Assembly (NCBI RefSeq): GCF_902712875.1
Contig: NZ_LR743509.1
Span: 1,550,001-1,614,000 of the forward strand
DNA from: Hyphomicrobium sp. ghe19
GTDB lineage: Bacteria > Pseudomonadota > Alphaproteobacteria > Rhizobiales > Hyphomicrobiaceae
Direction of reading: 5' to 3'
Length of the DNA stretch: 64,000 bases
Shown: piece after piece, positions 2,526 through 62,187 of the stretch
How the letters are laid out: each line of letters opens with the position of its first letter
Numbering within the stretch: position 1 is the first letter of the stretch
Program-made: the position numbers and the translations under genes
Notes under the pieces: generated by a model
Databases searched by the model: none
The model's input: only the letters and a program-made list of their open reading frames with translations
Told to the model about the DNA's origin: nothing

Positions 2526-2535
2526 GACAATTCAC

Positions 2536-3180: not shown

Positions 3181-3181
3181 C

Positions 3182-6243: not shown

Positions 6244-6245
6244 GA

Positions 6246-6416: not shown

Positions 6417-6432
6417 CTAGGACCCCCATCCC

Positions 6433-9671: not shown

Positions 9672-9679
9672 GGCGCTAG

Positions 9680-15102: not shown

Positions 15103-15156
15103 GGGGCGACTTCCTCTTGCACCGGAAGTGGGTGGTGGCTCGCGCCACCAGCCAAA

Positions 15157-17514
15157 TCAGAACTTGACGGTCATCGCGCCGGAGAACGTGCGGGGTTGGC
15201 CGAGATAGCCTTGCAGGCCACCGTAACCGCCCGAAGCCGGGTCGTCGTACTTCAGGTATTGTGCGTAGACCTTATCGAACACGTTCTGCACGCGGAAATC
15301 GATTGTCGTCCAATCTGTCGGTTTCCACTGCAGGCCGGCGTTGACGATCGTGTAGGCGGGGCGTTTCACTGTGTTGTCAAAGTTCTCGAACGACGACCCG
15401 ATATACTGCAGGCCGCCGCTGGCCTGCCAGCCACGCGCGAACGCCCAGGTCAGCCAGAGATTGGCTGTTTGTTCAGGGATAAGGATCGGCGTTTTGCCGC
15501 TGTAGTCGGTCACCGCGAACGTTGAGAAATCGATGTACTGGAAATCGTCATACTGAGCTTTCAGCCACGCCGCGTTTGCATCGACTCGCCACCCATACCC
15601 AAGTTCAAGTCCGCCCGATGCTTCGACGCCGTACGACGACTGTTGGCCGATCTGCTGAAACTGATAGGAAGCGTCGAGCACGATAAGATCGTTTTTCTCG
15701 ATACGATATCCAGCGAGCGTCCATTCGCCCCTTCCGTTCCAGAACGATTGCTTCACTCCAACTTCAATCTGGTTGCCCGTTGTGAGGTTGAAATTCGCGA
15801 AGTTCTTCGCCAGATCGAGCAGCGGTACGTTGATCGGGTCTGACGCAACCGAATATTGCCCGTAGATCGCGAAGTTTTTCACCGGCTCAAAGACCGCGCC
15901 GACGCGCCACCCAAGGGCGCCAAAAGTCTTTTCGAAACTCTGGCTAAGGCTGACGTCTTCGCGTTCGATTGTTGGCGCGTCAAAGCGGACACCGCCGACG
16001 ACGGTCAGGTTGTCGAGAAGATGAATGCGGTTTTCCGCGAATACGCCATACTCGGTCAGCTCGGACTTGTATTTCGGGTCGAGCTGATTGGGGTTCGGGA
16101 AGAGACCGCGGTCGAAATGATAGGGATCGAGCGAGTTGGACTCGAACGGAATGTAGTTGGCATATCCGAAGCGCGTTCGCGTCACGTCAACCCCGACCAC
16201 GGATTCATTGGCGAATCCGAGCACACGGGTTCGCAACGTTGCGTCGCTTCGCGATCCGATCTGATCCTGCTGTTGAACGATATGGATATAACCGCTGCGG
16301 TCGACGTCGCCGGTGACCGGATTGAGGAAGTAGTCTTCCGCGTTGCGCCATTCGCGATTGCTGCTCGATATATACGCGATATTGCGGAACGACAGCGCGG
16401 AGCTCGGCGTGTACTCGGTCTTGAACTGGGTGAAATTGTCCTTGAACCGAATGCGGCTGTCGTAGACGTTGTAGTTCTTCTCGCGCAGGCTTTCGTCGAT
16501 TTCGCCGTCCCGGAACGGCGTTCCGAAGTAGCGCATCGGCTTCTGATCGCCGTAGTCCGTTGAAAGAGTGAACACGAGATTCGGCGCGGCCTGCAGCCTC
16601 AACGCGCCGGAAATCCCGAAGTTTTCTGAATGCCCGAGATCGACCCAGCCTTCCGAAGCGTCGCCGCTCACGTCGAAGCGATAGGAGAGCGCTTCGTTCA
16701 ACGGACCCGCGCTGTCGAGTGACAGGCGCCGCGTCATGTTCGAGTCGACGTAGACCTGCGCTTCATTCTCAAAGCCTGTCGTAATCGGCTTTTTCGGAAC
16801 AACGTTGATAACGCCGCCAATCGCGCCTTCACCGTAAAGAACGGAGGCGGGTCCGTGCAACACTTCGATGCGATCGACGGACCACATGTTGAACGGAAAT
16901 GTAACGTTGCCGCGGCCGGGCGATATGCGCGTTCCGTCATACAAGCGCACGACGGACCCGTTGCCCTGATAGCCGCGGCTCGCAAAGGCTTGCCCATAGA
17001 CCGGATTGGCGACACTGCTGAATCCCGGCGCATTATGGGTTATCGCATCCGTCACCGTGTCCTGGCCGCGGTCGCGGGCCATCTCGCCTGAGATCACAGA
17101 AACACTGGCCGGAGTTTCGAGTGGTGTTAGATCAAGCCTGCTGCCGGCAGTTGTCGGCACGTTGAGATTGAGCCCAGGCTTGGTCGGTGTGTTGACGCCG
17201 GTTCGTGCGGGATCCACCACCGGCTCCGCGGGTGTATCCGTGGCGCCCTGTTTCCCTTCACCAGTCTGCTTTTGTTGCGATAAGGTCTTCTTCTTTTTCT
17301 TTGAAGACGTGGTCGACTCTTGTCCACCGAGCACCGTGATGGGCGGCAAATTGCCAGGATTTTGCGAGTTTTCCGAAGGTTTTGCCTCTTGAGCGCACAG
17401 CGCGAGCGAGCTCGAAGTCATCGCTAGGGCGAACAGGCTGACGCGTGTGGAGACGACGAAACGACGTGAATTCGCGGCCCGCTGGGGCGGCAATTCGACA
17501 ATGAGATTTGACAT
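15157..17514 (-). CDS. TonB-dependent outer-membrane receptor (siderophore-type), riboswitch-controlled
   Basis: 785 residues. Signal peptide of about 42 residues, then a Lys-rich linker (a run of five Lys near residue 75). The plug domain spans about 130-260 (ASVSVISGEMARDRG, VDRIEVLHGPASVLYGEGAIGGVINVV) and a 22-strand-type barrel ends in a C-terminal Phe. The overall pattern is that of ferric-siderophore receptors such as FhuA/FpvA rather than BtuB. Yet a cobalamin riboswitch sits upstream, so the ligand may be a corrinoid or a compound related to cobalt or iron. It uses TonB-ExbBD energy for import. Confidence 0.9.
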   Translation of the reverse strand: MSNLIVELPPQRAANSRRFVVSTRVSLFALAMTSSSLALCAQEAKPSENSQNPGNLPPITVLGGQESTTSSKKKKKTLSQQKQTGEGKQGATDTPAEPVVDPARTGVNTPTKPGLNLNVPTTAGSRLDLTPLETPASVSVISGEMARDRGQDTVTDAITHNAPGFSSVANPVYGQAFASRGYQGNGSVVRLYDGTRISPGRGNVTFPFNMWSVDRIEVLHGPASVLYGEGAIGGVINVVPKKPITTGFENEAQVYVDSNMTRRLSLDSAGPLNEALSYRFDVSGDASEGWVDLGHSENFGISGALRLQAAPNLVFTLSTDYGDQKPMRYFGTPFRDGEIDESLREKNYNVYDSRIRFKDNFTQFKTEYTPSSALSFRNIAYISSSNREWRNAEDYFLNPVTGDVDRSGYIHIVQQQDQIGSRSDATLRTRVLGFANESVVGVDVTRTRFGYANYIPFESNSLDPYHFDRGLFPNPNQLDPKYKSELTEYGVFAENRIHLLDNLTVVGGVRFDAPTIEREDVSLSQSFEKTFGALGWRVGAVFEPVKNFAIYGQYSVASDPINVPLLDLAKNFANFNLTTGNQIEVGVKQSFWNGRGEWTLAGYRIEKNDLIVLDASYQFQQIGQQSSYGVEASGGLELGYGWRVDANAAWLKAQYDDFQYIDFSTFAVTDYSGKTPILIPEQTANLWLTWAFARGWQASGGLQYIGSSFENFDNTVKRPAYTIVNAGLQWKPTDWTTIDFRVQNVFDKVYAQYLKYDDPASGGYGGLQGYLGQPRTFSGAMTVKF

Positions 17515-32084: not shown

Positions 32085-32981
32085 CTATTCGGTGCCGATG
32101 CCGAGTTCGCGCGCCGCGGAGGTCAGGCGGGTCTTTGCGCCGGCGTCGTTTGCAAAGGCCGCGAGGGCTTTCGTCAGTGCTGCTTTTGCAGCATCCTTCT
32201 CGCCAAGGGTCATGCGCGAACTCATAAGACGCAGCCAGCCGTTCTCGTCGTTTGGATTGGTTTCGAGCCGTGCTGCGAGCTTGTCGACCATGCCGTGGAT
32301 CATGTCGTCACGCTGAGAAGCGGTGTCCCCTGCCACTGGCTCTGATGCTGAAGCGGACGGCGAATTGCTTGCCGCGATCTGTGCCGACTTTGCTTGCTCG
32401 AGGGCCTTCTTGATTTCCTCATTGCCGGGGTCGAGCTTCAGGGCTGTTTCGTAGGCTTTAGCCGCATCGTCTGGCTTATCGGTATTGAGGTAAGACCATC
32501 CGAGCGTTTTCCAACCGTTCACATCGTTCGGATCTTGTTCGAGCCTCGTCACGAGCTTCACGATCATCGTATCGACGTCAGGCAACTCGACCGCGTTGGA
32601 GGCGGGCGACTGAGCTGCCGCCGATTCCGGATTTGCGTCTATCGCGTTCGCATACGCGCGAAGAGAGTCCAATGCTTGCGACGTATCCGAGCCATCATCA
32701 GAGGCGAATGCCGAATGCGGTGCAGACTGCGTATCACTTATGGCTGTTCCAACGCTAGACGAGTTCAACTCATTCTGCGCGACGCTTGCAAAACAGACGG
32801 CGGCGATAGCAGCGAGCGGAAGCAATACGAGACCGGATGAGGGAAGGCTTGTCGCGATCCACCGTCTGACGAGCGCTACTGCCGGCCGGTGACCATGCAG
32901 TCTAACGCGCAAGACAAGTAGCGCCGTCGCCAGCAGCGTTGCGGCTGTCCCAGTGGCGACCATCATGTAGTGCTGTGTCAT
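32085..32981 (-). CDS. CcmI/CycH-like TPR protein (cytochrome c maturation)
   Basis: 298 residues from ATG 32981 with GAGG 7 bases upstream. Two N-terminal helices (about 5-25 and 50-68) lead to a periplasmic region with a TPR pair (about 135-195, NGWKTLGWSYLNTDKPDDAAKAYE). A C-terminal block (about 230-298) reads MVDKLAARLETNPNDENGWLRL, the pattern of CcmI/CycH, which delivers apocytochrome c to the haem ligase. Last gene of an operon encoding 14 c-type haem sites, so it may be a dedicated maturation helper; the other ccm genes are not here. Confidence 0.75.
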   Translation of the reverse strand: MTQHYMMVATGTAATLLATALLVLRVRLHGHRPAVALVRRWIATSLPSSGLVLLPLAAIAAVCFASVAQNELNSSSVGTAISDTQSAPHSAFASDDGSDTSQALDSLRAYANAIDANPESAAAQSPASNAVELPDVDTMIVKLVTRLEQDPNDVNGWKTLGWSYLNTDKPDDAAKAYETALKLDPGNEEIKKALEQAKSAQIAASNSPSASASEPVAGDTASQRDDMIHGMVDKLAARLETNPNDENGWLRLMSSRMTLGEKDAAKAALTKALAAFANDAGAKTRLTSAARELGIGTE

Positions 32982-33124
32982 GTCCCATCCTCGTGAAGTG
33001 CTTTTTCGCCGAGGAATGGGTCGCAAAATGAGGCATCAGCACAATGGTTTTGCGCGACAAAAGATGATGAACCCCGCGCCGATGTTTCATCTTCATCGGC
33101 TTGATCGGAGTAGAACGCTCGGCG

Positions 33125-35521
33125 CTACTGCATCGGGATTTTCGTCTGCATGATCGGGGTGATCACGCCATTCACATGATACTTGTGGCAGGTGAGGCAG
33201 TCTTGGCGCACCTTTTTGGCGGTGTGACAGCTCTGGCAAAGGTCCTTGTTCACGGCCCCAAAGTTGGAGGCAAAGCTATGCGGATTGCCCTGTTCGTAGC
33301 TCTTCAGGTAGGGGCGGCTCTTGTCGAGGCTATGGCAGGTCAGGCAGCCGCGATTTTGCATGACGCCGAGATGCGGCTCATGGATGAAAGTCGTGAAGCG
33401 TCCGAGTTTCGTCTCAGCCGATGACGGTGAGAAGTTGACCACGCGGCCCTTGCCTTGATTGTCGTCCACGCTGTGGCATTTCGTGCAGGACCCTTGAGCG
33501 TCTTTGCTCGTCAGGAAATCGAAGACGGCTGCTGCGGGGCCTCGGTCACCCTTCGGCGCCTGCGGGCCGGTCAGGAAGAGCCATGAGTAGATGAATTTGT
33601 CCTTGTGACCTGCCGGGCGATAGAAAATCGCATAATCCTGCCGGTACCAACCGCCGTATTCGGCCCAGCTTTCCGGATCGATATTGCTTTCTATGCTGAT
33701 CACAGGCGCGGTCTTCGCCGGAGACGCAGAGGCTGTGTCCGGTTGCGACGGAATTGCGCGAGGCTCTGGCGCTCTGCCGCGGTCATTGCCGCGGGACTTC
33801 ATTTCGCGAAGCTCTTCCTCCGTGGGTCGGAGCAGGTCGTCAGATTGGCTCGTCGCTTTGTCGCCGGCGACTTGAGCATTCTCCGCCGGACGTGCGTCCT
33901 GCAAACCTGCTCTCATCGGTTCGGGCAGGCTGCCGGCGGCGCGTTTCTCCTTGCCGCCGTTCGATTTCGCATTTGCGCTGTCGTCCTTTCCGGCGGCTCC
34001 TTGAGCATCGGCCCCCGAAGCTTTCTTCTCCTGTCCTGCGGGCATGAGGCACTGACCAAGAACGCGCATGAGGCATGCGGGCGGATCGTATTTGGTGCCG
34101 CTGGCATTTTCGCTCGGCGCCTCTTTCTCGTCAGTTTTTTCGTCAGCCTCGGTCGATGCCTGAGGTTGGTCCGAAGCCGCCGGCGCGTCCGCGGCAGCAG
34201 GCTCCTCGGTTGTCGCCGCGCTCGAATTGCTTGGTTCGGGATCATTGACGGCGGGTTGCGGGTCGGAGGTCACCGGACCGCCGGTGATTTCTCTCGCAAG
34301 ATTGGGCAGCCATTGCTGCTGGGCACCGACGACGACATCACGCGGTATGCTCGCGGTCAGATCGGCAACGAGAGACGCACTCAGCTTTCCGCCGCTGCCG
34401 ATGTTGAGGTCGCCGAGAACGTCCGAAGCCTTGCCGGAGATAAGCGAATAAAGCAGCCGCTTGATCTCCCAGGTGAGATCCTTCACGGCCGTGATCTGAT
34501 CGTCGCTTGCGTTGGTCAGATCCTGGAGGTTCAATTTGTCAACGGTCTTGATAAGCGCACGGCCCTTCTCGGTCCGGCTGATCATCACCTTCATGAAGGG
34601 TGTTAGCCCGGCTTCGGACGCCTCCGGCCATTCGCCAATTGCGGCGTTGCGCTTCTTCAGGGTTTCCAGGTCGAGGCCAGGGAGCGCGAGGAAGGCAATA
34701 CCTTTCGGGCCTGTCGCCCGTTCCTTCCCTGTGATCTGATCGAGATGGCAGCCGGTGCAGGTCTTCTCGAATGGCGCGACCGCCATGATCCTCCTGTCCT
34801 TCTGGCTGTCGTGACAGGTCGAGCAGGAGTCCGGAATACGCTTCGCCGCATCCTTCTTCGCGACTTCTGGAAAGTGTTTATCGAAATGGCTCGCATGATC
34901 GTAGACGATCCGCGTGCGGCGATCGAACGGATAGTTTTCGAATTGCGGGTGATGGCCGTCGAAGCTATCGAACTTTACGACATGGCACGAGCGACACTGC
35001 TCGTTGGAGATCTTGCCCAGTTTGAAATTGGCGCCTTTGTGCTCCTGGTGGCAGGTTGCGCAAGTGAGGCCGGGTGAGACGACATCGTGGGATGGGAAGG
35101 CGGCGTTTTGTGCGCGAGCCGATAGCGGCTCGGGCGTCGACGCAGCAATCTTGGTCAGCCGTTTGGTGCTGGCTAACAGCACATTGGCCGAAGCGCCGTG
35201 TGGGAAAAAAGCCGTTGCCGGCATCTTGTGGCAGGTGATGCAGGCCTTGCTATCATCAATCGGGTTGCCGGCGACAAGGCCGTGAATCCAACTCAACTTT
35301 CCGTCGCCGCCTTTGCTGTGACACGAAGAGCAATTTTCAATCGAAGCGTGAGCGCTCGTCAGCGGCCCGGGCATGAGCAACTGCGTGCCCTTCGAGAGAA
35401 AGTAGGCGGTGAACGTGGAAGCCGCCGTGATCAGTGCCACGAGCAGCGCGATGCGGTCGCGCCGGAAGCTCGGAGGCTTCGGACTGTGGCTCTCTAGCGG
35501 CCAGAAAAAGCGCCACATCAC
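33125..35521 (-). CDS. Ten-heme membrane-anchored c-type cytochrome
   Basis: 798 residues. One uncleaved N-terminal helix (about residues 24-44) anchors a periplasmic protein. Ten CxxCH haem sites are visible: six in the first 275 residues (CSSCH, CITCH, CATCH, CRSCH, CSTCH, CTGCH) and four in the last 150 (CTKCH, CLTCH, CQSCH, CLTCH). Between them lie a helical domain and a disordered Ala/Glu/Pro/Ser-rich stretch of about 200 residues. Resembles the cytochrome c3/NapC-like multihaem class. Coupled by a 4-base overlap to the cytochrome b-like gene, the likely electron donor or acceptor in the membrane. Confidence 0.9.
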   Translation of the reverse strand: MMWRFFWPLESHSPKPPSFRRDRIALLVALITAASTFTAYFLSKGTQLLMPGPLTSAHASIENCSSCHSKGGDGKLSWIHGLVAGNPIDDSKACITCHKMPATAFFPHGASANVLLASTKRLTKIAASTPEPLSARAQNAAFPSHDVVSPGLTCATCHQEHKGANFKLGKISNEQCRSCHVVKFDSFDGHHPQFENYPFDRRTRIVYDHASHFDKHFPEVAKKDAAKRIPDSCSTCHDSQKDRRIMAVAPFEKTCTGCHLDQITGKERATGPKGIAFLALPGLDLETLKKRNAAIGEWPEASEAGLTPFMKVMISRTEKGRALIKTVDKLNLQDLTNASDDQITAVKDLTWEIKRLLYSLISGKASDVLGDLNIGSGGKLSASLVADLTASIPRDVVVGAQQQWLPNLAREITGGPVTSDPQPAVNDPEPSNSSAATTEEPAAADAPAASDQPQASTEADEKTDEKEAPSENASGTKYDPPACLMRVLGQCLMPAGQEKKASGADAQGAAGKDDSANAKSNGGKEKRAAGSLPEPMRAGLQDARPAENAQVAGDKATSQSDDLLRPTEEELREMKSRGNDRGRAPEPRAIPSQPDTASASPAKTAPVISIESNIDPESWAEYGGWYRQDYAIFYRPAGHKDKFIYSWLFLTGPQAPKGDRGPAAAVFDFLTSKDAQGSCTKCHSVDDNQGKGRVVNFSPSSAETKLGRFTTFIHEPHLGVMQNRGCLTCHSLDKSRPYLKSYEQGNPHSFASNFGAVNKDLCQSCHTAKKVRQDCLTCHKYHVNGVITPIMQTKIPMQ

Positions 35522-36423
35522 AGAGCCCCCGACGCGTATGAGTAGACGACGAGGACGTGCAGCACCGAGAGGACGAGCAGCCCGTAGGTGACGGGCACAT
35601 GTACAAATAGCCAGGCCCTGGTAAGCCCGAAATGGACGCGCGCGAAATCAAGGGCGTCCTTTTCGGCTACGAGGTTCCAGATTCTGGAAAGCCTTTCCTG
35701 GCCCTGGGCGTCAACGTAGGGAGCGAGGTGGTTGAGTTCGTCGATGAGCCGCTTGAGTGGGCGTTGCGAAGCGATCAGGTGGGACGAGAAATTGCGCGGG
35801 CCCTCGAAAAAATCCCGCAAGTGGTTGGTGTAGAGATCGGTTATCCAGGCATCATAAGGCGCCGCGGGCAAGGCGATCGCGTCGGCCGACGGATCGGGCA
35901 TTGCCACGATCGCTTTCACATCGCGCGCGAGTTCAGCGACGCGAACGGGAATGCGATCATAGCCTACGCGCTCGTCGACGCGGCTCTTGGCTTTAAGCGA
36001 CCAAGCCAGATAGGTACCGAAAAGGCCGCTCAGAGTCACGAGCATGAAGCCGGACCACAACGCCCAATCGAAAACAGAGTTCGGAAGGGCGAAATTTGAA
36101 TGGGAAAGGAATGCCGCGACCAGCAGGTAGCCCACAAAAATATGGAACGTCCGCCACCGCATGATGGATTTTGGCGGAAGCCTGCCCGTTTTGGTGGCGA
36201 CGTGAAAGAAGAGCTGCAAGCTCATTCCACCAGCCAGCAGCCAGCCGTCGAGATAGCGTGGATCGCGAAGTGCATCGGTGTAGATTTGGACAAGCCAGAA
36301 TAGGCCGCCGGAGATGGCAACGATCAGTATCGCAGTGATTGTCTGGCCGCTGCCCCCTCGCGTCGGGCCCGGAGAGCGTGCTCCCATCGACACGTTTGCC
36401 GCGCGCCGCGCCAGCAATTTCAA
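35518..36423 (-). CDS. Membrane cytochrome b-like protein
   Basis: 301 residues with about five transmembrane helices. Two lie early (about 28-48 and 60-76, the second holding LQLFFHVATKTG), one holds FHIFVGYLLVAAFLSHSNF and the next is WSGFMLVTLSGLFGTYLAW. The last helix pair carries WLFVHVPVTYGLLVLSVLHVLVVY. The spaced His residues in opposite helices fit b-haem ligation as in ferric-reductase-like or DsbD/YedZ-type membrane cytochromes. A soluble loop of about 100 residues lies between helices 4 and 5. Its gene overlaps the ten-heme cytochrome, so a quinol-to-multihaem or NADH-to-multihaem step is likely. Confidence 0.75.
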   Translation of the reverse strand: MKLLARRAANVSMGARSPGPTRGGSGQTITAILIVAISGGLFWLVQIYTDALRDPRYLDGWLLAGGMSLQLFFHVATKTGRLPPKSIMRWRTFHIFVGYLLVAAFLSHSNFALPNSVFDWALWSGFMLVTLSGLFGTYLAWSLKAKSRVDERVGYDRIPVRVAELARDVKAIVAMPDPSADAIALPAAPYDAWITDLYTNHLRDFFEGPRNFSSHLIASQRPLKRLIDELNHLAPYVDAQGQERLSRIWNLVAEKDALDFARVHFGLTRAWLFVHVPVTYGLLVLSVLHVLVVYSYASGAL

Positions 36424-36499
36424 GGCGGCCCGCCAAGATTATTCATCGTCGTTCCCCCATCGTGCGTGTCAGACAGCTGCTGTCGGCATCGCGACCCGA

Positions 36500-37558
36500 T
36501 CAATTGATTGCACTCGGTGGCCTCACCTTCCCCACGTACTTTTCCGGTCCCGGAATGAGCGCATCGAGCCCGGCCATTGTGCTGCCGTCGTATTTTTCGG
36601 TGAGGCCCGTGAGCAGCTTGGAAACGCTGTCGGCAGCAGCGGTCAGCAGGCGCTCGTTGTTGAGCTTCAGCGATGCCGAATGTGCATATTCGATCAACTT
36701 GGCGATTTCGGGCACGTTCGGCGCAGCTTTCGCCGCAGCGGCAAGTTGCTTTCGTACCCGGTCGACCCGCTCGGCCATGAAGAACGCATAGGGCTTTCTA
36801 ACCGTCGCCTTTGCGACGGCGCGCAATGAAGTCTCGAGTTCAACGCCAAGGCCGATAAGATAGAGCATCCGCTTGCGCGTCGCGTTCGCGGCAGCGTTGT
36901 CCTTGCCCTTGGAATACCAAGTGTTGTGGCGGACCTCACCCTGCGACCAGGACACCAGATCGAAGGCGCTGCCGGCGCGATGGCCGCCTTTATTCACGAG
37001 TTCTTCTTGCGGCACGACGTGGCAGCCGTAGCAGTTCTTCGCCAGCTGATAGATCGCGCTGGTCCCTATCATTCCTTTGGAATTGGCGAGTTTCCAGCGC
37101 GCCGCCGCCTCGGCTTTCGTCTCTGTCTTTGCGGTCTTGCCGCTGTAGCCGCTGTGAACTTTGATCCAATCTTTGCCGGCGCTGTGGCAAGATTCGCAGG
37201 AGATGCCCGCGACCGGCTCTTTGCCATCGTCCTTCTGCTGAACCGTGAAATGACAGGTGACGCACAGCCCTTCCGATTTGATGCGTCTCACTCCCATTTT
37301 GTCCGCGATTTTCTTCGCCTCGGCGTTGCGCGGAAGATCTCGAAACGTTTTGAAATGATGCGTTGTCTTCCAGGCTTCGGTCTCCTGCTTGTGACACTCG
37401 GCGCAGGCATTCGGCCCGACGACCTGGGCGGGATCGGATGCTGCCGCACCGCACGCGACAAAAAACATGATCAGCGAGCCGGAGAGAAAGCAGGCGAGGC
37501 GAGAGAGGCGCCGTGTGCCGAAATGCGAGGGACTGAAACTCAAACGATCTGAAACCAC
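36500..37558 (-). CDS. Tetraheme periplasmic cytochrome c (c554-like)
   Basis: About 352 residues if started at GTG 37558; TTG 37543 is also possible, and the frame upstream overlaps the reductase gene. A signal peptide ends near AACGAAAS-type sequence (CGAAASDPAQ). Four haem sites: CAECH (followed by KQETEAWKTTHH, the c554 pattern), CVTCH, CESCH and CYGCH. The second half is haem-free and helical, with a possible helical bundle. Related to the cytochrome c554/c-prime family, which relays electrons in the periplasm. Second gene of the leftward operon. Confidence 0.85.
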   Translation of the reverse strand: MVSDRLSFSPSHFGTRRLSRLACFLSGSLIMFFVACGAAASDPAQVVGPNACAECHKQETEAWKTTHHFKTFRDLPRNAEAKKIADKMGVRRIKSEGLCVTCHFTVQQKDDGKEPVAGISCESCHSAGKDWIKVHSGYSGKTAKTETKAEAAARWKLANSKGMIGTSAIYQLAKNCYGCHVVPQEELVNKGGHRAGSAFDLVSWSQGEVRHNTWYSKGKDNAAANATRKRMLYLIGLGVELETSLRAVAKATVRKPYAFFMAERVDRVRKQLAAAAKAAPNVPEIAKLIEYAHSASLKLNNERLLTAAADSVSKLLTGLTEKYDGSTMAGLDALIPGPEKYVGKVRPPSAIN

Positions 37559-37586
37559 AGTGCTGTCGAGCCTTGCTTCGGCGAGC

Positions 37587-38663
37587 CTACGCGCTCGTAT
37601 CGAGTGTGATCGCGAGGTCGCGGGAGCGATCGAAATCGGCTTTGCGCAGCGGGCGACCGAGGGGCACAGCAAGCCGTTTCATCGCCCGGGTCAGAACGCC
37701 GCCTTCGCTCGCGCCATCGGCGTTGGGTAGGAAAGGATCTGCATGGCAGGTCGCACCAACGTGCGCGGCGATGGATTTGACTGACTCGACCATCCCCGGC
37801 GCGCCGCAGGCGTAGAGAACATCGGTCGGCAACAGTCGCGGCAGATAGTCGGTCGGCCGGCCGGGCATGATGGCGTTCGGCAAAGCCTGCGGCGCACTAC
37901 AGACGGGCACGACGAGGACATTGGGAAAACGTGCGAGCTTCACGAGGGCTTGGCCCATATATAGAGACTCGACAGTGCGGCCGCCGGCGATGATCATCAT
38001 CCTTCGCTCCGGCTTCTCTCGCAAAGCGGCGACGGCGATGGACCAGATCGGCGCGAAGCCGGTATTGGTGGCGACGAGAATGAGGCGGCCTTCCAGATTG
38101 GGCCGCAGATGTGCCGAGCCGTACGGCCCGGTCAAAGTCACCCGGTGTCCCGGCGTGATGCGCTTGCCGAGCGATGACGTAACGCGGCCGCCGTCCATGC
38201 GCCGGACATGAAACCAGATGGAGCTCTTGTTGGGATCGCCGCAGAGCGGATGCGTAATGCTGAAGGGACGACGCGGATAGCCCCTGAAGCACACCTGCGC
38301 ATATTGACCAGCATGATGCGGCAGCGCGCGATCCGTCTTGATGCCGACCTCGATCACCTCGGCCGACAGAGGGCGCAGTGAACTCAACACGCCTTCGACG
38401 GTTCGAATATTTGTCTGGCGATTGCTCTCCACGACCGCGTTACTGGCGATGCGGCACTGGCACGCATGAACGATGCTTGGCTCGGCGCCTTCTCCGCCCT
38501 CCACGTCGCCGGAAATCAGCCGAACGCAGCATGTGCCGCAGTGTCCGGCGCGGCAATCGTAAGGCAGGTCGATGCCGTTATTCAGAGCTGCGTCGAGCAG
38601 CAACTCACCAGGGCGTGCCTCAAAGCTTTTTCCATCGATCGTAATGTTATGGCTTTTTGCCAT
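37587..38663 (-). CDS. 2Fe-2S ferredoxin / FAD / NAD(P)H oxidoreductase
   Basis: 358 residues from ATG 38663 (AGGACAGGTG just upstream). Residues 1-85 are a plant-type 2Fe-2S domain: CRAGHCGTCCVRL plus a distal Cys (HACQC). Residues ~95-200 form the FAD domain (RRPFSITHP and GRVTSSLG), and residues ~200-300 the NAD(P)H domain (LVATNTGFAPIWSI, then YACGAPGMVES). This is the reductase module of oxygenases and of Nqr-like systems. As first gene of the cytochrome operon it may feed NADH electrons in, or accept them. Confidence 0.9.
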   Translation of the reverse strand: MAKSHNITIDGKSFEARPGELLLDAALNNGIDLPYDCRAGHCGTCCVRLISGDVEGGEGAEPSIVHACQCRIASNAVVESNRQTNIRTVEGVLSSLRPLSAEVIEVGIKTDRALPHHAGQYAQVCFRGYPRRPFSITHPLCGDPNKSSIWFHVRRMDGGRVTSSLGKRITPGHRVTLTGPYGSAHLRPNLEGRLILVATNTGFAPIWSIAVAALREKPERRMMIIAGGRTVESLYMGQALVKLARFPNVLVVPVCSAPQALPNAIMPGRPTDYLPRLLPTDVLYACGAPGMVESVKSIAAHVGATCHADPFLPNADGASEGGVLTRAMKRLAVPLGRPLRKADFDRSRDLAITLDTSA

Positions 38664-39147
38664 CACCTGTCCTGCAATTCGTGCCGTTTCAAGCAATTCG
38701 GAATTGGGAGCTATCCAGCTATTATGGTTAGACAATGACCCACGGCGGATCGAATAAAATGAAACATGGATTGAAGGCGAAATATTTCGCTCCATAAACT
38801 CGAATTATGCATTAAGCATTGCGCCCGCGAATGAGCCTGTTTTGCTCCCCGCGACAACAATCCACTTCTTGGAAAGTTGCTGCCGTTTCCTAGGGTTGTG
38901 TGCGGCGTTCGTAATCATTTAGAAGAGCATAATTCCTTTAATATTTGTATCGAGTGGAATGGAAATGTTTTTTCGATTCCGAATTAACCATAGCCAATTT
39001 GGCTCGCCATTTAATCCGGCCATATCGCTGCCCCGTTTTGTGTATTGATTTGTTTTCGACGGGGGATCGCATAAATCGGACTGCATTTCGCGCGATCATG
39101 CAATTTTGAGTTCTGCCCAGGGGTATGGGCAGTCTGGACTGGGGGCG
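38664..39147. promoter_or_regulatory. Divergent AT-rich control region of the redox locus
   Basis: About 480 bases separating the leftward reductase/cytochrome operon from the rightward pentaheme/barrel genes. It is clearly lower in GC than the flanks, with A/T runs at 38930-39000. A perfect 7-base inverted repeat with a 6-base spacer, CTGCCCA-GGGGTA-TGGGCAG (39113-39132), lies 16 bases before the pentaheme start. No FNR-type TTGAT-N4-ATCAA site was found by eye. Both promoters must lie here, so co-regulation is likely. Confidence 0.6.
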
Positions 39148-41031
39148 ATGGTACAAGTTTCGCGTGTTTCACTGCTTGCCTGCGCATGGGCGGGCACGAT
39201 GCTGGTCTGCGCAATGTTCTCTCGGCAAGATGCCGTCGCAGGATCTCGCGCTTTAGCCGAGACAGCAAGTCAAACTCAACAGAGCCGTTCCGAACAGAAA
39301 TTCGCTCAGAATGGCGAAGCAGCCGGCGGAGGCCAGGCCGCCAAAGCGACGAGCATCGAGATCGTAAAGTCCAAGTCCGATCCGCATAGCGGCCAGGGCG
39401 TCGACGAGTCTCTATATCCCACTGCCGCGCAATGCGGTGGATGTCACAAGCAAATTTATGAAGAGTGGTCGTCGTCGCAGCATGCCTATGCGTCGATATC
39501 TCCGATGTTCCACAAGTTCGAGCAGAAGTTCCAATCGCTCACTCAAGGAACGGTCGGCACCTTTTGCGTTCGATGCCATCAACAGGTCGGCACGCAGCTC
39601 GGCGAAGCCCGCGAAGCGCCACTCTGGAAGCGCAGTCAGATCTCGCGTGAGGGTGTAACCTGCATCACCTGTCACCGGGTCAAGGAACAGTACGGCAAGG
39701 TCAACGGTGAGCGCCGGATCGAGCCCGGAAAAATCTACGAGCCTGTATATGGCAGCGGCGAAAAGAGCGTCATCAAAGACGTTCTCGCCAATAAGGATAC
39801 CTACTCGGTCAAAACGGGTGCCGACGGGCGCGGCAACGACATTCACGCGGGCATGATTACCAACGATCAGATCACCAAGTCGGAGTTCTGCGTCAGCTGC
39901 CACCAGGTTGCAGTCAACCTCGGCATCAAGTTGGAAATCGTCTGGGATCAATATCGCGACAGCCCGGCACGTAAAGCCGGCGTCAGCTGTCAGGATTGCC
40001 ACATGGGCAAGACTCCGGGAAAGCCGGACGGCTATGCGACCGCGCCTTCTGCGATCGTCGGCGGCAAAGAGGTCAACCCCGGGCGCAAGCATGCAAACCA
40101 CCGGTTTATCGGTCCGGGTTATTCTATCGCGCACCCTGGTATTTTCCCGCACAACACGAAGGCGCAGACCACGAGTATCAAGGACTGGCTGGAGTTCGAC
40201 TGGCGCGCCGGTTGGGGTAGCCGCAAGTTCGAAGACAAGGTTGCGGCTGGAAAGATCAAGGTCAATTTTCCAAAGCGATGGGCCGATGCGAGCGATCGCG
40301 AAGATGCCCGTGAGATCATCGATGAAAATCTGAAGAAGCTCGACGAGCGTGACAAGCTCAGGCGTGAGGTGATGGAGAACAGCAGCAAGGTCGACGGTCC
40401 CTACTTCGAAGGCACGCCGCGGATCGGTGCAGAGCTGGCGTTCTCCTACAAGATCAAGAACATCAATACGGGGCACAACCTGCCTTCGGGCTCGCTCGGC
40501 GCGCAACCGCAGCTTTGGGTCAATGTCGCCCTCGTCGATCCCGATGGGAAGAACATCTGGGAGTCGGGTTACGTCGACAGCAACGGGGACATGGCGGATC
40601 TACATAGTCTCGACGTAGCAGCCGGCCGCATCGACACGGATCAAATGCTGGTGAATTTTCAGACCAAGTTTCTCACGACCAATGTCAAGGGCACCGACCG
40701 GGAGATGTACCTGCCGGTAAACTTCGACATCGATCCACTTCCGCAGCTTCGGCCGCCGCAAATCCCGACTACGGTTCTCAATCATCCGCCGCTCGTGCGC
40801 ATGGAGAACCATTCAATGGCGCCGCTAGGGGAGAGGGTGGCCAAATATTCGGTGCCGGGAAAATTGATCAAAAAGTCTGGCAAATACCGCCTTGCCTTCC
40901 GCATGCGTAGCCGTGCCGAGCCTATCTATTTCATGCGCTTCGTCGGAGCCACCAAGGCCATGGAGCAGAGCATGAATGAGCGGATCATGAACTTCCATGA
41001 CTTCGCCGTCGATGTCGACGTGAAAGGATAA
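39148..41031 (+). CDS. Pentaheme periplasmic cytochrome c
   Basis: 627 residues from ATG 39148 with a signal peptide of about 32 residues. Five haem sites: CGGCH (followed by KQIYEEWSSSQHAYAS, the c554 signature), CVRCH, CITCH, CVSCH and CQDCH, all in the first 300 residues. The remaining 300 residues are haem-free and end in a beta-rich domain (SYKIKNINTGHNLPSG, ELAFSYK), like the C-terminal domain of some Geobacter-type multihaem proteins. Followed by an outer-membrane barrel gene 126 bases downstream, so the two likely act together. Substrate unknown. Confidence 0.88.
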   Translation: MVQVSRVSLLACAWAGTMLVCAMFSRQDAVAGSRALAETASQTQQSRSEQKFAQNGEAAGGGQAAKATSIEIVKSKSDPHSGQGVDESLYPTAAQCGGCHKQIYEEWSSSQHAYASISPMFHKFEQKFQSLTQGTVGTFCVRCHQQVGTQLGEAREAPLWKRSQISREGVTCITCHRVKEQYGKVNGERRIEPGKIYEPVYGSGEKSVIKDVLANKDTYSVKTGADGRGNDIHAGMITNDQITKSEFCVSCHQVAVNLGIKLEIVWDQYRDSPARKAGVSCQDCHMGKTPGKPDGYATAPSAIVGGKEVNPGRKHANHRFIGPGYSIAHPGIFPHNTKAQTTSIKDWLEFDWRAGWGSRKFEDKVAAGKIKVNFPKRWADASDREDAREIIDENLKKLDERDKLRREVMENSSKVDGPYFEGTPRIGAELAFSYKIKNINTGHNLPSGSLGAQPQLWVNVALVDPDGKNIWESGYVDSNGDMADLHSLDVAAGRIDTDQMLVNFQTKFLTTNVKGTDREMYLPVNFDIDPLPQLRPPQIPTTVLNHPPLVRMENHSMAPLGERVAKYSVPGKLIKKSGKYRLAFRMRSRAEPIYFMRFVGATKAMEQSMNERIMNFHDFAVDVDVKG

Positions 41032-41157
41032 AAATCAAAGAGCCGAGTGTTTCGGATTTGGTCCCGCCATGGGCACCAAAATAGCGGGTCCGAAGCCTCT
41101 CTGAAGCCTCCTGAAACTCGAACGCACGAGCCAGGGGCATGATGTGGGAGCTTCCAT

Positions 41158-42849
41158 ATGACTTGCGATGCGAAGGGCAACCTTCGATACCGAACGAGTG
41201 TGACGACTGCTGCAATTGTTCTGATGGCCGGAAGCTATCTGACGATGTCAGGCACGACCGCAAAAACCGAACCCCGTGAAAGTGGCGCCGAGGCCGGCAA
41301 AGACGAGAACTGGATTACGGCTTTGTCCAGCGAGTCTGCCGCCGCTTCCCAGTCCGTAGGGAAACGCGAAAACGAGACTGTCGTTCCGAAGCAGTACCTC
41401 GGAGCGAATGTCGACGACGCCGACAAATCGAACGCGGCAAAAGAAGACGGCAAAAAAGCCAAAGCTCGCAAGAAAGAAAAATCGACCGAAGGCGCCTTCC
41501 GCTCCGATCCGCAGTACGCGCACAAGTACGACGCCAAAGAACAGTCCGACATATATGGCGGCAAAACCGCCATCGAGCCGCCGCGCCCGCTGCTCGAATT
41601 AGGCCGCGAGCAATACACCTCGGGAATATACGATGAGAGCAGCACAATCTTCGGGAAATTGAACCCGCTGCTTCCGGGGCTCTCCGTCTACGGGGATTGG
41701 CGGACAGCGATCGCTTACAATCGCAATAACGGCAAGGATATCGCGCAGGTTGCGACGCGGTTGAATCTCGACGTCGATTTCAAGCTTACCGCAACGGAGC
41801 GCATACATGCGTTCTTCACGCCGCTTCAGGATGGCAACGCAAAGTTCACTCGCTTTGAGTTTGGCGGTCGCGATGGCGATCAGAAGTTCAACGGTGAGTT
41901 CGATTTCACTCCACAGGTTCTGTACTTCGAGGGTGATGCGGGCTCCATCTATTCCGGCATGACCGGACAGCATGCCGGGTTCGACCTGCCTTTCACCGTC
42001 GGTCTCTTCCCGCTGTTCCTGCAGAACGGGATCTGGGCGAACGACGCGATCCTCGGCGGTGCGGTGACGCTGCCTGCGCGGAATTCGGCGGCGCTTGGTC
42101 TCTCCAACTTCGACGTCACCTTCTTCGCCGGCTTCGATAACATCGACAACGCGAGCTTCGTCAAAGCCAACGGCAAGGTGGACAACAACAATGCCAACCT
42201 CTTCGGCGTCACGACCTTCGCCGACGCTTTCAACGGCTATGTCGAAGCGGGTTATGGCTTTCTGCAGGGCACCGGTGTTCAGGCCGGCGTCGAGCAACAC
42301 TTCCTGACGGCCGCGTATACCCGGCGCTATGCCAACACGATCTCAAACTCGACCCGCGTGTTCGCGAACTTCGGGGAGGATGGGCACGGAAATGGCGACG
42401 GCGTTGCTTTGATTTCAGAGAACAGTTTGATCACATCTTTGCCGAGCACGCTTCTTCCCTATGCGAACTTCTTTATCGGGGCCGGGAATCCCGAGCCGCT
42501 GGTCGATGGCAACAACGCGGGCATACTGAAGAACGTCGGCATCAACTTCGAGACCGACGCGCTGACGGGCTATCCGAAGCTCGACGACACCGCCTCCAAT
42601 ACCTTTGGTGGCGCGCTCGGCGTGCAGTATCTCTTCAATCTGGATCAGCAGCTCGTCTTCGAGGTGGCGACGGTGCAGCCCTTCGAGAATGACAATATCG
42701 GTGCCAAGGGCGCGCAGTACGGCTTCGGCGCTCGCTATCAGATCCCGCTCACCCGGTCGTGGCTGTTCCGCGCCGATGCGACCTATCAGATCCAAGAAGG
42801 CGCCGAAGATAATTTCGGGTTCCGTACGGAGCTGCGCAGCAAGTTCTGA
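41158..42849 (+). CDS. Large outer-membrane beta-barrel protein (porin-like)
   Basis: 563 residues starting at ATG 41158 after a GGGAG site. A signal peptide (about residues 1-36) is followed by a long charged, Lys/Asp-rich linker (about 60-165). About 390 residues of alternating beta-strand sequence end in a terminal Phe (TELRSKF), the barrel-assembly signal. Aromatic girdle residues are frequent. Together with the pentaheme gene just upstream, this resembles porin-cytochrome pairs (MtrAB, PioAB), although no sequence relation is evident to me. It could equally be a specific porin for the cytochrome's substrate. Confidence 0.8.
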   Translation: MTCDAKGNLRYRTSVTTAAIVLMAGSYLTMSGTTAKTEPRESGAEAGKDENWITALSSESAAASQSVGKRENETVVPKQYLGANVDDADKSNAAKEDGKKAKARKKEKSTEGAFRSDPQYAHKYDAKEQSDIYGGKTAIEPPRPLLELGREQYTSGIYDESSTIFGKLNPLLPGLSVYGDWRTAIAYNRNNGKDIAQVATRLNLDVDFKLTATERIHAFFTPLQDGNAKFTRFEFGGRDGDQKFNGEFDFTPQVLYFEGDAGSIYSGMTGQHAGFDLPFTVGLFPLFLQNGIWANDAILGGAVTLPARNSAALGLSNFDVTFFAGFDNIDNASFVKANGKVDNNNANLFGVTTFADAFNGYVEAGYGFLQGTGVQAGVEQHFLTAAYTRRYANTISNSTRVFANFGEDGHGNGDGVALISENSLITSLPSTLLPYANFFIGAGNPEPLVDGNNAGILKNVGINFETDALTGYPKLDDTASNTFGGALGVQYLFNLDQQLVFEVATVQPFENDNIGAKGAQYGFGARYQIPLTRSWLFRADATYQIQEGAEDNFGFRTELRSKF

Positions 42850-42934: not shown

Positions 42935-43624
42935 TTATCTCGGCCGGACGATGGCGTCGATCTCGATGTCGACGTCATCGTCGACCATCGCTTGGTAGTT
43001 CGTCATGTTGAATGCGCTGCGTTGAATGCGTGTCTTGGCGATAAATCTGCGTGCGCCGGCGTCGTACTTCAGTGCGGGATCGTCGTGTGACTCGATGCTG
43101 ACTTGGAGTGTTACCGGCTTGGTGATGCCGTTGACCGTGATCTCGCCCAAAACCTCTGCGGCGGTTTGGGAGCCTGTTCGGACGCCGACGCTCTTGAAGG
43201 CGATGACGGGCGAGCGCTCGACGTTGAAAAAATCCGCCCCTCTCAACTCGTTGTCGATGAAGTCTTCGCCGGTCGTGAGGCTCGCAGCGGAGATCGAGGC
43301 GTTGACCTTGCTCTTTCCTGGAGCGGCTTCGTCAAAGTCGAGCGTACCGCTAACCTTGGTGAAGCGGCCGCGGTGTGTCGCGTAAGCCATTTTATAAGCG
43401 AAGCGAACCTCGGTTCGGCGCTGGTCGAATTCAAAGCGACGGGCGTGGGCGGCCGATGCGCCGGCGACTGTCAGCTCTGCAACAAGCAGTGCGAGACATG
43501 CCATTCGCAATGAGGGCGGCGCTTTGAGCGGCTTCTCACCCTCTGAGATTTCGCGGTCGCCCGATTTGTCTTGAATTTCAGCATTTCTTGGGTGACCGTC
43601 ATTGCCGCGACGCGGTTTTTTCAT
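42935..43624 (-). CDS. YceI-family periplasmic protein
   Basis: About 229 residues from ATG 43624; a later ATG at 43504 would give the usual YceI size of about 190. A hydrophobic signal segment (MACLALLVAELTVAGASAAHA) precedes the lipocalin-like YceI domain: FDQRRTEVRFAYKM, GRFTKVSGTLDFD, DNELRGADFFNVERSP and a closing IEIDAIV. YceI proteins bind isoprenoid or other lipid ligands in the periplasm and are often induced by base or osmotic stress. Its start overlaps the upstream small membrane protein gene. Confidence 0.9.
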   Translation of the reverse strand: MKKPRRGNDGHPRNAEIQDKSGDREISEGEKPLKAPPSLRMACLALLVAELTVAGASAAHARRFEFDQRRTEVRFAYKMAYATHRGRFTKVSGTLDFDEAAPGKSKVNASISAASLTTGEDFIDNELRGADFFNVERSPVIAFKSVGVRTGSQTAAEVLGEITVNGITKPVTLQVSIESHDDPALKYDAGARRFIAKTRIQRSAFNMTNYQAMVDDDVDIEIDAIVRPR

Positions 43625-43832
43625 TGAGTGGCCTTTCGCCGTTTGTATTCTGGGAGAAGCCTGTGGCGCGCTTTGCGCGTTCCCCGAGCCCATTTGTATG
43701 GATCAAGGCTTCAACGACTTCAGAAATGCCGTCTCTGCCGGTGATTGCGGCTCTGAAAATAATCCAGGCAATGGCCGACAAGACGAGGGGGTACAGCAAC
43801 ACGACGATCAATCCGATAATTGTAGTCGCCAT
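43599..43832 (-). CDS. Small membrane protein overlapping the YceI gene
   Basis: 77 residues with one strong hydrophobic segment at residues 4-30 (IIGLIVVLLYPLVLSAIAWI) and a basic tail. A GGAAG-type site precedes the ATG. The gene end overlaps the YceI start by 26 bases, so the two are probably translated together. In some bacteria YceI is linked to a cytochrome b561, but this protein is far too short and has no His pair for haem. Function unknown. Confidence 0.55.
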   Translation of the reverse strand: MATTIIGLIVVLLYPLVLSAIAWIIFRAAITGRDGISEVVEALIHTNGLGERAKRATGFSQNTNGERPLNEKTASRQ

Positions 43833-59603: not shown

Positions 59604-62187
59604 CTAAAACTTGAGCTTCATGCCGCCGTAAGCCGCGAATGGCATTGCGGGGACGATGGTTCGTGCGTCGGTGAAATCGATCGTGCCGAGAGAGGCTTCG
59701 GAGCCTTCCTCCGTGTCGAAATAGTTTCCGAAAGTTCCGTAGTGGTGGTCGAAGAGATTGTTGATCAACCCATAAATCTGGATGTGATTGGTGATGTCAT
59801 ATGACGTGTGAAGGTTGACCTGCGCATATCCTGCCAGTGGTTTGTTCAGGTTCGACTCGTCACCGAAGAAGACCTGATCGCTTGCCGCGACGAGGTCCGA
59901 ACCGAATTTCCATTTCGGCGTCAGCCAATAATCAAACCCCGCTTTGAAGCGGTGGCGAGGTACGCCAGGGAGCCTGTCGCCCGGACGCACATTGATGCAG
60001 TTCTCGGTCGCATCGCCGGAGCAGGGCACAACGTCGGGTGATGGGTTGTTCGGCGACGCGAGTTCCAGCGACGACTGAAATGTCGGATCGATGAACGCAT
60101 AGTTTGCATAGAGGAACAGTCGCTGCGTCTGGTAGCTGATCGAAGCTTCAATGCCTTGACGCAGCGTGTCGCCGGCATTTTGGAAGAAGCCACGTCCGGA
60201 CGTCGGGGAGGCAACGCTAATGATATCGTCTTGATTGAGCGTTCTGAAGAGTCCGAAGCTCCAGTCGATCTTGTCGGTCCTCAGCGCGTTTGACGTTTCG
60301 CCGCGGAATCCGACTTCGCCCGTACGCGACACCACCTGTTTCAGCGGAGGATCGCCGGTAAGGAAGCTCTCGATGAGGCATGGATTGTCAGGGTCGGCGC
60401 AAGCAAGTTCTGCCGGCGTCGGTGCGCGGTTAGCCTCGGCGTAGCTCGTGTAAAAGGTCAGCCCTTTTGACAGCTGGTAGGTTAGGCCGCCCATTGGGTT
60501 GAAGCGCTGATACGTATGCGACCCGTTCAAGAACGGATCGTCGCCGGTTTTGTCTTCCAAAGTCACTCTTGCGAAATTATAGCGTCCGCCGACAGTCAGG
60601 CTGAGCCGATCAGTGACGTCAAAGGTATCGGTGAAATAGACGCCGTAATAATCGTTGGTCGTCGTCAGACTGCGTGGCGAGATATCATCCGGCCCCGTCA
60701 AGTCGATGCCAAGAGGCGAGATGGTGAAGTCCGGTCCGAATGCGCCAAGGCTACTCCTTGCCCCGTAAGCGACATGACCGTGATCGATGCTGCCGCCGAT
60801 CAGGAACTGGTTGTTGTGGTCGAAAAGCTTTGCTTTTTCGACAGCCTGCAGCGACCCGCCGAAACTGTCGGCATTTTGAGATGTCCGATCCAGCGATCCC
60901 AACGGAGCGCCGCCGCCGACGGACGAAGGCACCGGACCGCTTGTGGAGGTCAACGGTTCGCCATCAAGACAAAGAACGTTGCCGCACGCCTCCAACTCCA
61001 AAATATTGCCGTCGGTATGGGCCTGCTGGAAATGGCGGTAATACGGCGACGCCGGAGAACGTGAGCGTATTCGTTGCCTTCACGGACCCATTGATCGAGA
61101 CCATCTCCATGTCGTTCTGGGTGGTCTGCGGATTGGTATAGACGCGATTCCAGCCCTCATCGAGCAATTCAACGGGCGCAGCTGTTACAGCGCCAACGAA
61201 GTTATCGGCGCCAGTGAAATTGACATGGAACTCGGCCTCACGATTCTTGAATCCGAGGTCGGCGTACATGCGGTGAACTTCGGCGGGTGAAAATTGGCGC
61301 CAGCCGTTGTCATTGATGTCCTCGGCCGCAATGAACATGGCCCAGTTGCCGCTTTGCGCGCCGGCCGCTCCCGAGCCTTGGATGCGCCCGAACGAACCGC
61401 CGCGAACGTCGAATTCCGCGCCCTGGAAATTGAAGCCGTCTCGCATGTCGACGCTGATCGCACCGCCGATGGCGTTCAATCCGAACACCGGGTTGCTGCC
61501 CATCACCGTCATGCTGGAAACGGCGTTCGATGGCAGGAAATCCCAATTGACGATGTCGCCGAACGCCTCGTTGATGCGGACGCCGTTTTGATAGACGGCT
61601 AAGCCTTGCGGCACACCGTTGACAGGCGAGGATGAAAATCCACGATATTGCACATCGGTTTGAAACTCATTGCCCTGCAGGTCGCTGACGATCACGCCAG
61701 GCACGCGTGCTTGCAAAACGTCCTGAGCGGTCACCGCGCCAGTGCGTTGAATATCCGCTGCCGTCGTGCTGGCGACGCCGTTCGGAACTTTTTCGAGAGG
61801 AATTTCGCTTCCCACGACAGGGGACATCTTTATCTGAGATGGCTCAGCCGCTTCGATCGCGGCTGGGCTTGGCGGAGGCAGTGGCGTGGTCGGCTCGCTC
61901 TTTGGTTTGGCGGCCTGCTTGACGGGCTTGGGTTGGGCTTTGGGTTGTTGCTGAATCACTTCCACATCCGGCAACGTCGTGCCCGGAGCGGCGGCTTGTC
62001 CTGGCGTTGTCGATTGCGAAGCCGGTGATCCGGCCGATGGCGCTTGTGCGGGGGGCGTCTGGCTGCTCGGAGGATTGGCGGTCGTCGTTGCCCCGCCAGT
62101 GTCTTGAGCCAGAACGGCGGATGATCCGAACATCACGCATGCGAGCGCCACTGCTGGCGCCATGGTGACCATGCGCGTTGACATCAA
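59604..62187 (-). pseudogene. TonB-dependent receptor interrupted by a frameshift
   Basis: The N-terminal part (62187 to about 61045) has a signal peptide, a long Pro/Gln/Ala-rich linker, a TonB-box-like DVEVIQQQ and a plug domain (YRGFSSSPVNGVPQGLAVYQNGVRINEAF, NPVFGLNAIGGAISV). The C-terminal part (to 59604) is a barrel ending in KLKF. A one-base insertion near 61041-61050 switches frame: read without it, GVAYYRHFQQAH continues smoothly into the second part. The joined product would be about 860 residues, normal for the family. Either inactivated or a base-calling error; ligand not recognised. Confidence 0.85.

Follow-up and report, generated by a model that had tools for sequence, protein, structure and literature searches.

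The 64,000-nucleotide stretch of Hyphomicrobium sp. ghe19 DNA analyzed here (the window) carries a set of seven genes, arranged as two divergent units, that encodes three multihaem cytochromes (MHCs) together with a barrel predicted to lie in the outer membrane, and that is identified below as a PCC4 cluster. The host genome forms a single contig of 4,616,147 bases, and the nearest proteins place the window in Hyphomicrobium, a bacterium of soil and water. The leftward unit consists of genes for a reductase, a tetrahaem c554 cytochrome, a cytochrome b, a decahaem cytochrome and a CcmI-like tetratricopeptide repeat (TPR) protein, and the rightward unit of those for a pentahaem cytochrome (MHC5) and then the barrel, all of them at the coordinates given in an earlier note on this DNA. 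The features are as follows (TM, transmembrane; Ig, immunoglobulin).

32085 to 33026, minus strand: CcmI/CycH-like TPR protein (PF23914, E 6.9e-16; two predicted TM segments)
33125 to 35521, minus strand: MHC10, decahaem cytochrome with an N-terminal anchor (10 CXXCH; TM 24-42)
35518 to 36423, minus strand: inner-membrane cytochrome b, the inner-membrane protein (IMP) of PCC4 (five hydrophobic segments, two b-haem His pairs)
36500 to 37672, minus strand: tetrahaem cytochrome of the c554 family (PF13435, E 1.8e-17; 4 CXXCH)
37587 to 38795, minus strand: cytoplasmic NAD(P)H-type reductase (Fer2, FAD_binding_6, NAD_binding_1)
38796 to 39105: divergent intergenic region between both transcription units
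39106 to 41031, plus strand: MHC5, exported pentahaem cytochrome with a C-terminal Ig-like domain (probable start 39148)
41158 to 42849, plus strand: outer-membrane barrel (N-terminal helix as signal, a disordered part, and the folded barrel from about residue 168, at 41659, to the end)
42935 to 43693, minus strand: YceI-family protein, a convergent neighbour not assigned to the system (PF04264, E 6.4e-36)

Pfam domains detected at the locus are CcmH/CycH TPR, c7/paired-CXXCH haem, cytochrome c554 and Fer2 with FAD- and NAD-binding domains. The parts named in the earlier note, namely a flavin/2Fe-2S reductase, a c554-like tetrahaem protein, a cytochrome b, a CcmI-like helper, a divergent pentahaem cytochrome and a barrel, are confirmed, and its count of 19 CXXCH sites is borne out by translation, with ten in 33125-35521 (-), four in 36500-37672 (-) and five in 39106-41031 (+); the six other locus open reading frames (ORFs) checked contain none. 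Counted in six frames, the whole window holds 25 such motifs, 19 of them in the three cytochrome ORFs, against an average of 3.06 in mononucleotide shuffles, so that its CXXCH content lies far above chance. Among sequences from the family and order, the window being included once per set, the number of haem sites is retained in 47 of 47 (four sites), 44 of 46 (ten) and 42 of 43 (five).

The cytochrome b, whose gene overlaps that of MHC10 by 4 bases, shows five hydrophobic segments at a threshold of 1.0 and four at 1.4, and contains the motifs WRTFH-x13-H (residues 90-108), SGLFG (132-136) and WLFVH-x13-H (271-289). Of 48 sequences (that of the window among them), 38 have all three motifs in full and ten deviate in at least one. 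H94, H108, H275 and H289 do not vary in an alignment that spans phyla (18 of 18 sequences); judging by the positive-inside charge pattern, the 140-residue stretch between segments 4 and 5 would face the cytoplasm. The reductase has an N-terminal 2Fe-2S domain followed by FAD and NAD domains, with the motifs CX4CX2C..C, RPFS and NTGFAP, and its best NCBIfam model is BenC (109.5 bits, cut-off 430), the Fre-type PRK08051 ranking fourth (76.3 bits, cut-off 230). Two HX13H pairs in the cytochrome b and an NAD(P)H flavoprotein on the cytoplasmic side recall ferric reductase/NOX enzymes, although no locus protein scanned has a PF01794 match and electrons would here continue to multihaem cytochromes. 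A comparable arrangement of NAD(P)H flavoprotein and cytochrome b underlies electron export by Fre-MsrQ. The ten sites ascribed to MHC10 were found, but not as a single block, haems 1-6 (residues 64-259) forming a hexahaem region that is separated by a long linker from a tetrahaem region with haems 7-10 (679-779). The spacing between haems 6 and 7 is 424 residues in the window and 294-520 (median 424) across 44 ten-haem sequences. The first-start ORF of the c554 protein overlaps the reductase gene; since two close homologues measure 352 aa, its true start is probably near 37558.

PCC4, described from genomes, is presented in the main text of He et al. (2017; PMC5566968) as a cluster in which a porin is joined by three periplasmic cytochromes (4, 5 and 10 haems), by an inner-membrane protein that is conserved and by further redox proteins; its Subgroup I is there made up of Hyphomicrobium only. 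The inner-membrane protein, which that text likens to FRE/NOX, is described as having five TM helices, SGXXG and two WX3HX13H motifs (PMC5566968). Every testable feature of this description is found at the locus: a Hyphomicrobium host, MHCs with 4, 5 and 10 haem sites, a five-TM protein in which SGXXG and both WX3HX13H motifs are exact, an adjacent porin gene in the form of the modelled barrel, a redox gene upstream of the tetrahaem gene (the reductase at 37587-38795), and the absence of a PF13247 gene, with no Fer4 match in the nine locus proteins scanned. None of the features compared with the main-text description of Subgroup I sets the window apart. The locus is therefore a PCC4 Subgroup I cluster, assigned by published feature description, and the opinion of the earlier note that the set matches no familiar system does not stand. 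Subgroup I is wider than the Hyphomicrobium-only statement of that text (PMC5566968), since the Hyphomicrobium-type reductase is also found at loci named Rhodomicrobium (L184), Filomicrobium (L188) and Aestuariivirga (L164). Loci with the other reductase type, equated with Subgroup II from the paper's text (PMC5566968), share five core genes homologous to those of the window (about 23-64% identity by gene and lineage), but possess an extra cyclic nucleotide (cNMP)-binding/4Fe-4S protein and a reductase with a C-terminal 2Fe-2S domain.

A flavo-2Fe-2S reductase of the NAD(P)H type accompanies the cluster almost constantly, being found in 48 of the 51 named loci that have all five core genes. 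With the Hyphomicrobium-type enzyme (N-terminal 2Fe-2S) the cNMP-binding 4Fe-4S protein occurs in 0 of 32 loci, and with the other type (C-terminal 2Fe-2S) in 33 of 35; the two types replace one another. Among 20 loci with the MHC5-barrel pair from 19 genomes of a class sample, the reductase is found in 14, and in two Pyr_redox domains are fused to the cNMP/4Fe-4S protein. He et al. mention redox-active proteins, and as far as a term search of their main text goes ('ferredoxin', 'FAD', and 'NAD-binding' 0 times; 'NADPH' once, on autotrophic metabolism) the reductase was not used to set direction (PMC5566968). The reductase link as such is not wholly new, since the available text of another report places ferredoxin-NADP reductase genes near seven of eleven clusters of a different porin-decahaem group (PMC13264449); new here are the barrel fold, the kinship of the pentahaem protein, the near-constancy of the reductase and the exchange of modules. 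In L114 (13018-14394) and L118 (15952-17319), the reductase and barrel genes are separated by one for an amino acid dehydrogenase of the Glu/Leu type (PF00208).

The named relatives (80 loci kept of 126 found, phyla by record title) span Pseudomonadota, Planctomycetota, Nitrospinota, Poribacteria, and Verrucomicrobiota, and cultured carriers include Hyphomicrobium facile DSM 1565 and H. zavarzinii ATCC 27496. In a family sample of 103 genomes, MHC5 (E 1e-20) was detected in 43, the cytochrome b (E 1e-10) in 45 and both in 42; MHC5 stands alone in G203 (69% complete) and the cytochrome b in G142, G149, and G211 (67-88% complete). From the 41 other both-positive genomes, 36 loci with MHC5 and the cytochrome b on one contig were compared (G179 was left out). 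Reductase, c554, cytochrome b, decahaem cytochrome and MHC5 are all present in 35 of these 36, with the barrel in 34, the exception lying at a contig end, while the 36th locus (L108) has the core genes and the other reductase type. The class sample of 337 genomes yielded MHC5 (E 1e-50) in 27 and the barrel (E 1e-8) in 29. All 27 MHC5-positive genomes have the barrel on the same contig, and the two remaining barrels begin at a contig start. Pentahaem cytochrome and barrel are thus a pair, which answers the co-occurrence check proposed in the earlier note and does not uphold the objection, raised there, that the barrel might be an ordinary, unrelated porin. A strong cytochrome b match (at least 200 bits) was found in 21 of the 337, of which 20 have the pair, and 28 more gave weak matches of at most 81 bits; the pair is constant and its inner-membrane partner more variable. 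At loci L240 and L241 of this sample, MHC5 and barrel are preceded by a distant tetrahaem c554-like gene alone, with no usual inner-membrane module nearby. The 80 named loci contain the cytochrome b in 77 and c554 in 69, and MHC5 and barrel both in 54, one of them in 5 and neither in 21 (15 of these stretches being under 15 kb). The operon without adjacent pair genes, named in the earlier note as counting against its reading, therefore does occur, but when nine genomes without an adjacent pair were searched, seven encoded a strong MHC5 elsewhere (at least 793 bits). A Methylomonas genome among the nine gave just a 44-bit partial match, and the control L170, with the pair beside the operon, was matched as expected.

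Neither Pfam nor NCBIfam gives the barrel a match up to E 0.1, PF11854 (MtrB/PioB) included. Its predicted structure is a beta-barrel of the OprD/AlgE-type fold with about 18 strands, and the barrel domain measures 384-405 aa in 42 of 42 sequences. The barrel of MtrB has 26 strands. Ideal backbone diameters are 32-34 Å for 18 strands versus 46-48 Å for 26, and the pentahaem core taken as a sphere measures about 39 Å; this geometry suggests that the modelled barrel is too narrow for the arrangement of MtrA in MtrB, and that it would be a small channel and not a sleeve around a wire. Charged residues are conserved within the strands, from which a water-filled pore may be expected. MtrB-like structures are not among the fold matches listed for the barrel, an absence that proves nothing, and a profile search of the host genome found no PF11854 protein elsewhere (one below-cut-off match was obtained by the same search in 14 control genomes). 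In common with MtrAB, MtoAB, and PioAB, the locus has a periplasmic multihaem protein and an outer-membrane barrel in adjacent genes, but the barrel is smaller and without a PF11854 match, and MHC5 (31.5 bits) and MHC10 (18.7 bits) both score far below the cut-off of the DmsE-type decahaem family TIGR03508 (192.2 bits). The likeness to MtrAB/PioAB noticed earlier is, on these three counts, superficial.

MHC5 probably starts 14 codons downstream of the ORF start, at 39148, since the identical database protein measures 627 aa; it is 96% identical to its H. facile counterpart. Its homologues include the Thermochromatium tepidum pentahaem cytochrome c552 (PDB 5ze8), with colinear haem motifs and the same combination of pentahaem and Ig-like domains. 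A C-terminal domain with an H-x2-P-[ST]-G motif is common to MHC5, this c552 and the ExtKL/Gsu2801 family, but MHC5 is longer, is accompanied by a barrel gene, and scores just 35.6 bits with the NCBI ExtKL model (cut-off 250). According to the available text of a further report, the family takes in ExtKL-type cytochromes and, by structure, an archaeal cytochrome nanowire subunit (PMC11976967). Weak profile matches were obtained with MccSep selenoprotein cytochromes (E about 5e-4) and with MccA (E 1.3e-3).

The two halves of the cluster have conflicting trees. MHC5 and barrel of Hyphomicrobiaceae group with an Opitutaceae bacterium (59 and 48% identity) and with class members such as G310 (64 and 48%), whereas their cytochrome b and decahaem cytochrome group with Hyphomicrobiales such as L133 and the alphaproteobacterium L143, whose own pair is just 37-39% (MHC5) and 28-30% (barrel) identical to that of the window. 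When Hyphomicrobiaceae are forced together with the L133 group, the log-likelihood falls by 446 units in the MHC5 tree and by 387 in that of the barrel; when they are forced together with the L170/L250 group, it falls by 180 for the cytochrome b and by 471 for the decahaem protein. The p-values of the approximately unbiased test (3e-10, 3e-46, 3e-71, and 7e-5) are not strict, because the groups were named after the first trees had been inspected; the log-likelihood gaps of 180 to 471 are large. The MHC5 and barrel trees show a similar pattern. On this evidence the cluster of Hyphomicrobium appears to be chimeric, put together from two sources as two modules open to exchange. Such an assembly suggests that MHC5 and barrel belong together as one unit and that neither half is tied to a single partner.

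The earlier idea of a trans-envelope multihaem/barrel redox system is supported. In the mechanism favoured here, the cytoplasmic reductase would take electrons from NAD(P)H via FAD and 2Fe-2S to both b haems of the inner-membrane protein, these would pass them to the anchored decahaem cytochrome and tetrahaem c554 in the periplasm, and these in turn to the pentahaem cytochrome at the outer membrane. MHC5 and the channel of about 18 strands would form a terminal module whose electrons go to an external acceptor. This acceptor would most likely be soluble (a chelated metal, a quinone or a humic shuttle) and would encounter MHC5 at the channel or by way of it; conduction along a wire of haems inside the barrel would be unlikely. 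In a methylotroph the system would provide an outlet for NADH electrons. Electron export, of the kind carried out by NOX and ferric reductases, is the simplest reading, because the donor NAD(P)H is strongly reducing and sits on the negative membrane side; transfer from NAD(P)H (about -0.32 V) to the outside runs downhill and along the membrane potential, and the reverse does not. We assign this mechanism, outward flow with MHC5 as the terminal pentahaem at an ~18-strand channel, a probability of roughly 0.5, and consider the outward direction taken by itself to be fairly probable. A broader proposal, somewhat doubtful, is that PCC4 is not a porin-cytochrome wire but, in five phyla or more, exports electrons from NAD(P)H by means of two modules: an inner module (reductase, di-haem b, 10 + 4 haem relay) could be coupled to exchangeable terminal modules of pentahaem reductase and 18-strand channel.

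In direction, and in the view taken of the barrel, this reading departs from the main text of He et al. (2017; PMC5566968), where extracellular Fe(II) or another donor is oxidized at MHC5/barrel and the electrons travel inward to the quinone pool, passing the haems of the periplasm and the inner-membrane protein on the way. This model can draw on the sources of PCC4, first found in a pyrite-oxidizing enrichment and in iron-oxidizing Zetaproteobacteria and also in a drinking-water filter (PMC5566968), and relatives detected here come from a subsea tunnel (OFTM genomes) and an Fe-Mn crust. It leaves unused, however, the NAD(P)H-type reductase of 48 of 51 complete loci, which is why outward flow is favoured. 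A RuBisCO profile search, which matched in 5 of 14 control genomes, had no match in the host genome, so that the Calvin cycle and with it autotrophic iron oxidation are unlikely there, with room left for other uses of Fe(II) or Mn(II); inward flow is judged distinctly unlikely. Outward transfer straight through the membrane by an MtrAB-like wire, with MHC5 partly inside the barrel, is unlikely too: the genes of the pair are adjacent in all complete cases and have one phylogenetic pattern, and the ExtKL and nanowire kinship of MHC5 (PMC11976967) would suit a wire, but a core of about 39 Å would not fit a barrel of 32-34 Å, and the strand charges hint at a pore filled with water.

Somewhat unlikely, to our mind, is a system without extracellular electron transfer, in which a reductase of the periplasm or outer membrane would be devoted to one specific compound that enters through the barrel. 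The barrel does have the fold of a substrate channel and MHC5 resembles a globular cytochrome with its weak MccSep and MccA matches, so that the alternative role mentioned in the earlier note, periplasmic reduction of a specific compound, gains some support, taken here to include reduction at the outer membrane itself; the distribution over at least five phyla and varied habitats better fits a general acceptor, and the conserved His suffice for bis-His coordination of all haems. That an ordinary porin adjoins the cytochrome operon by chance is hardly credible: the fold is that of ordinary 18-strand porins, but 27 of the 29 barrels in the class sample share a contig with MHC5, two being cut at a contig start, and the trees of the two proteins agree in pattern.

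Several observations weigh against the export mechanism. Three of the 51 complete named loci (L206-L208, two titled Gimesia) lack a reductase in the stretch compared, the barrel there lying within 0.4 kb of the stretch edge, and four class-sample pair loci (L240, L241, L242, and L245) show no such enzyme nearby; where present, the reductase could serve another partner. The association of the modules is not complete, for G352 has a strong inner-membrane protein match without the pair, 7 of 27 pair genomes show a weak or no cytochrome b profile match, and the Oleiharenicola genome (L174) has the inner module with no MHC5 found by the genome search. The MHC5 model is of low confidence in the pentahaem region (block predicted local distance difference test, pLDDT, 38-71), and Foldseek alone gave it no match at E 0.001 (best E 3.3e-3, unrelated enzymes). 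Its seven conserved non-proximal His suffice for bis-His ligation of five haems, which, judged from sequence, would suit a pure electron carrier as much as a reductase. Finally, a literature search whose coverage lacked most subscription papers found no PCC4 experiment.

PCC4 has been a tentative name since 2017, and its cultured named carriers make direction, acceptor and outer-membrane passage testable. Outward flow from NAD(P)H would mean that an electron outlet has been overlooked in many non-model bacteria, methylotrophs and planctomycetes among them, and that the cluster, where read as a sign of iron oxidation, has been read in the wrong direction. Two-module export, if true, would add to haem-in-barrel conduits and fused Cyc2-type proteins a third way of delivering electrons to acceptors outside the cell, and the exchange of modules would offer a natural experiment on which half sets the acceptor.

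The TPR protein, matched in 28 of 35 family loci (the YceI protein in 16 of 35), is probably a helper in haem c attachment and has weak paralogues in the host at G000:C1:2052030 (38.7 bits) and 3179842 (25.8 bits). Variation among relatives includes a repeated Cys-rich stretch (CxxGPxxxGxC type, from the alignment consensus) N-terminal to the decahaem membrane anchor in L114 and its relatives, and a tandem pair of tetrahaem c554-like genes instead of a single one in L198, L199, L200, L201, and L209 (mostly Planctomycetota). In 36 orthologous divergent intergenic regions, extended by 150 bases of flanking gene per side, no FNR/FixK, Fur or NnrR-type palindrome and no sigma-54 pattern was found, and a RegR-type pattern was not above shuffled expectation. 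A mobile origin was considered and rejected, since plasmids gave no near DNA match to the locus and phage records no protein match to MHC5. Elsewhere in the window, a prophage-like stretch at 143-11266 (+), with a head closure protein, an endolysin and weak tail-fibre-like matches, is accompanied by an integrase-like ORF at 12945-13520 (-). Overlapping ORFs in different frames at 59604-61001 and 60964-62187 (-) appear by eye to be two parts of one TonB-dependent receptor gene, and at 13603-17514 (-), likewise by eye, a PepSY-type membrane protein appears to follow a TonB-dependent receptor, the two perhaps serving metal uptake.

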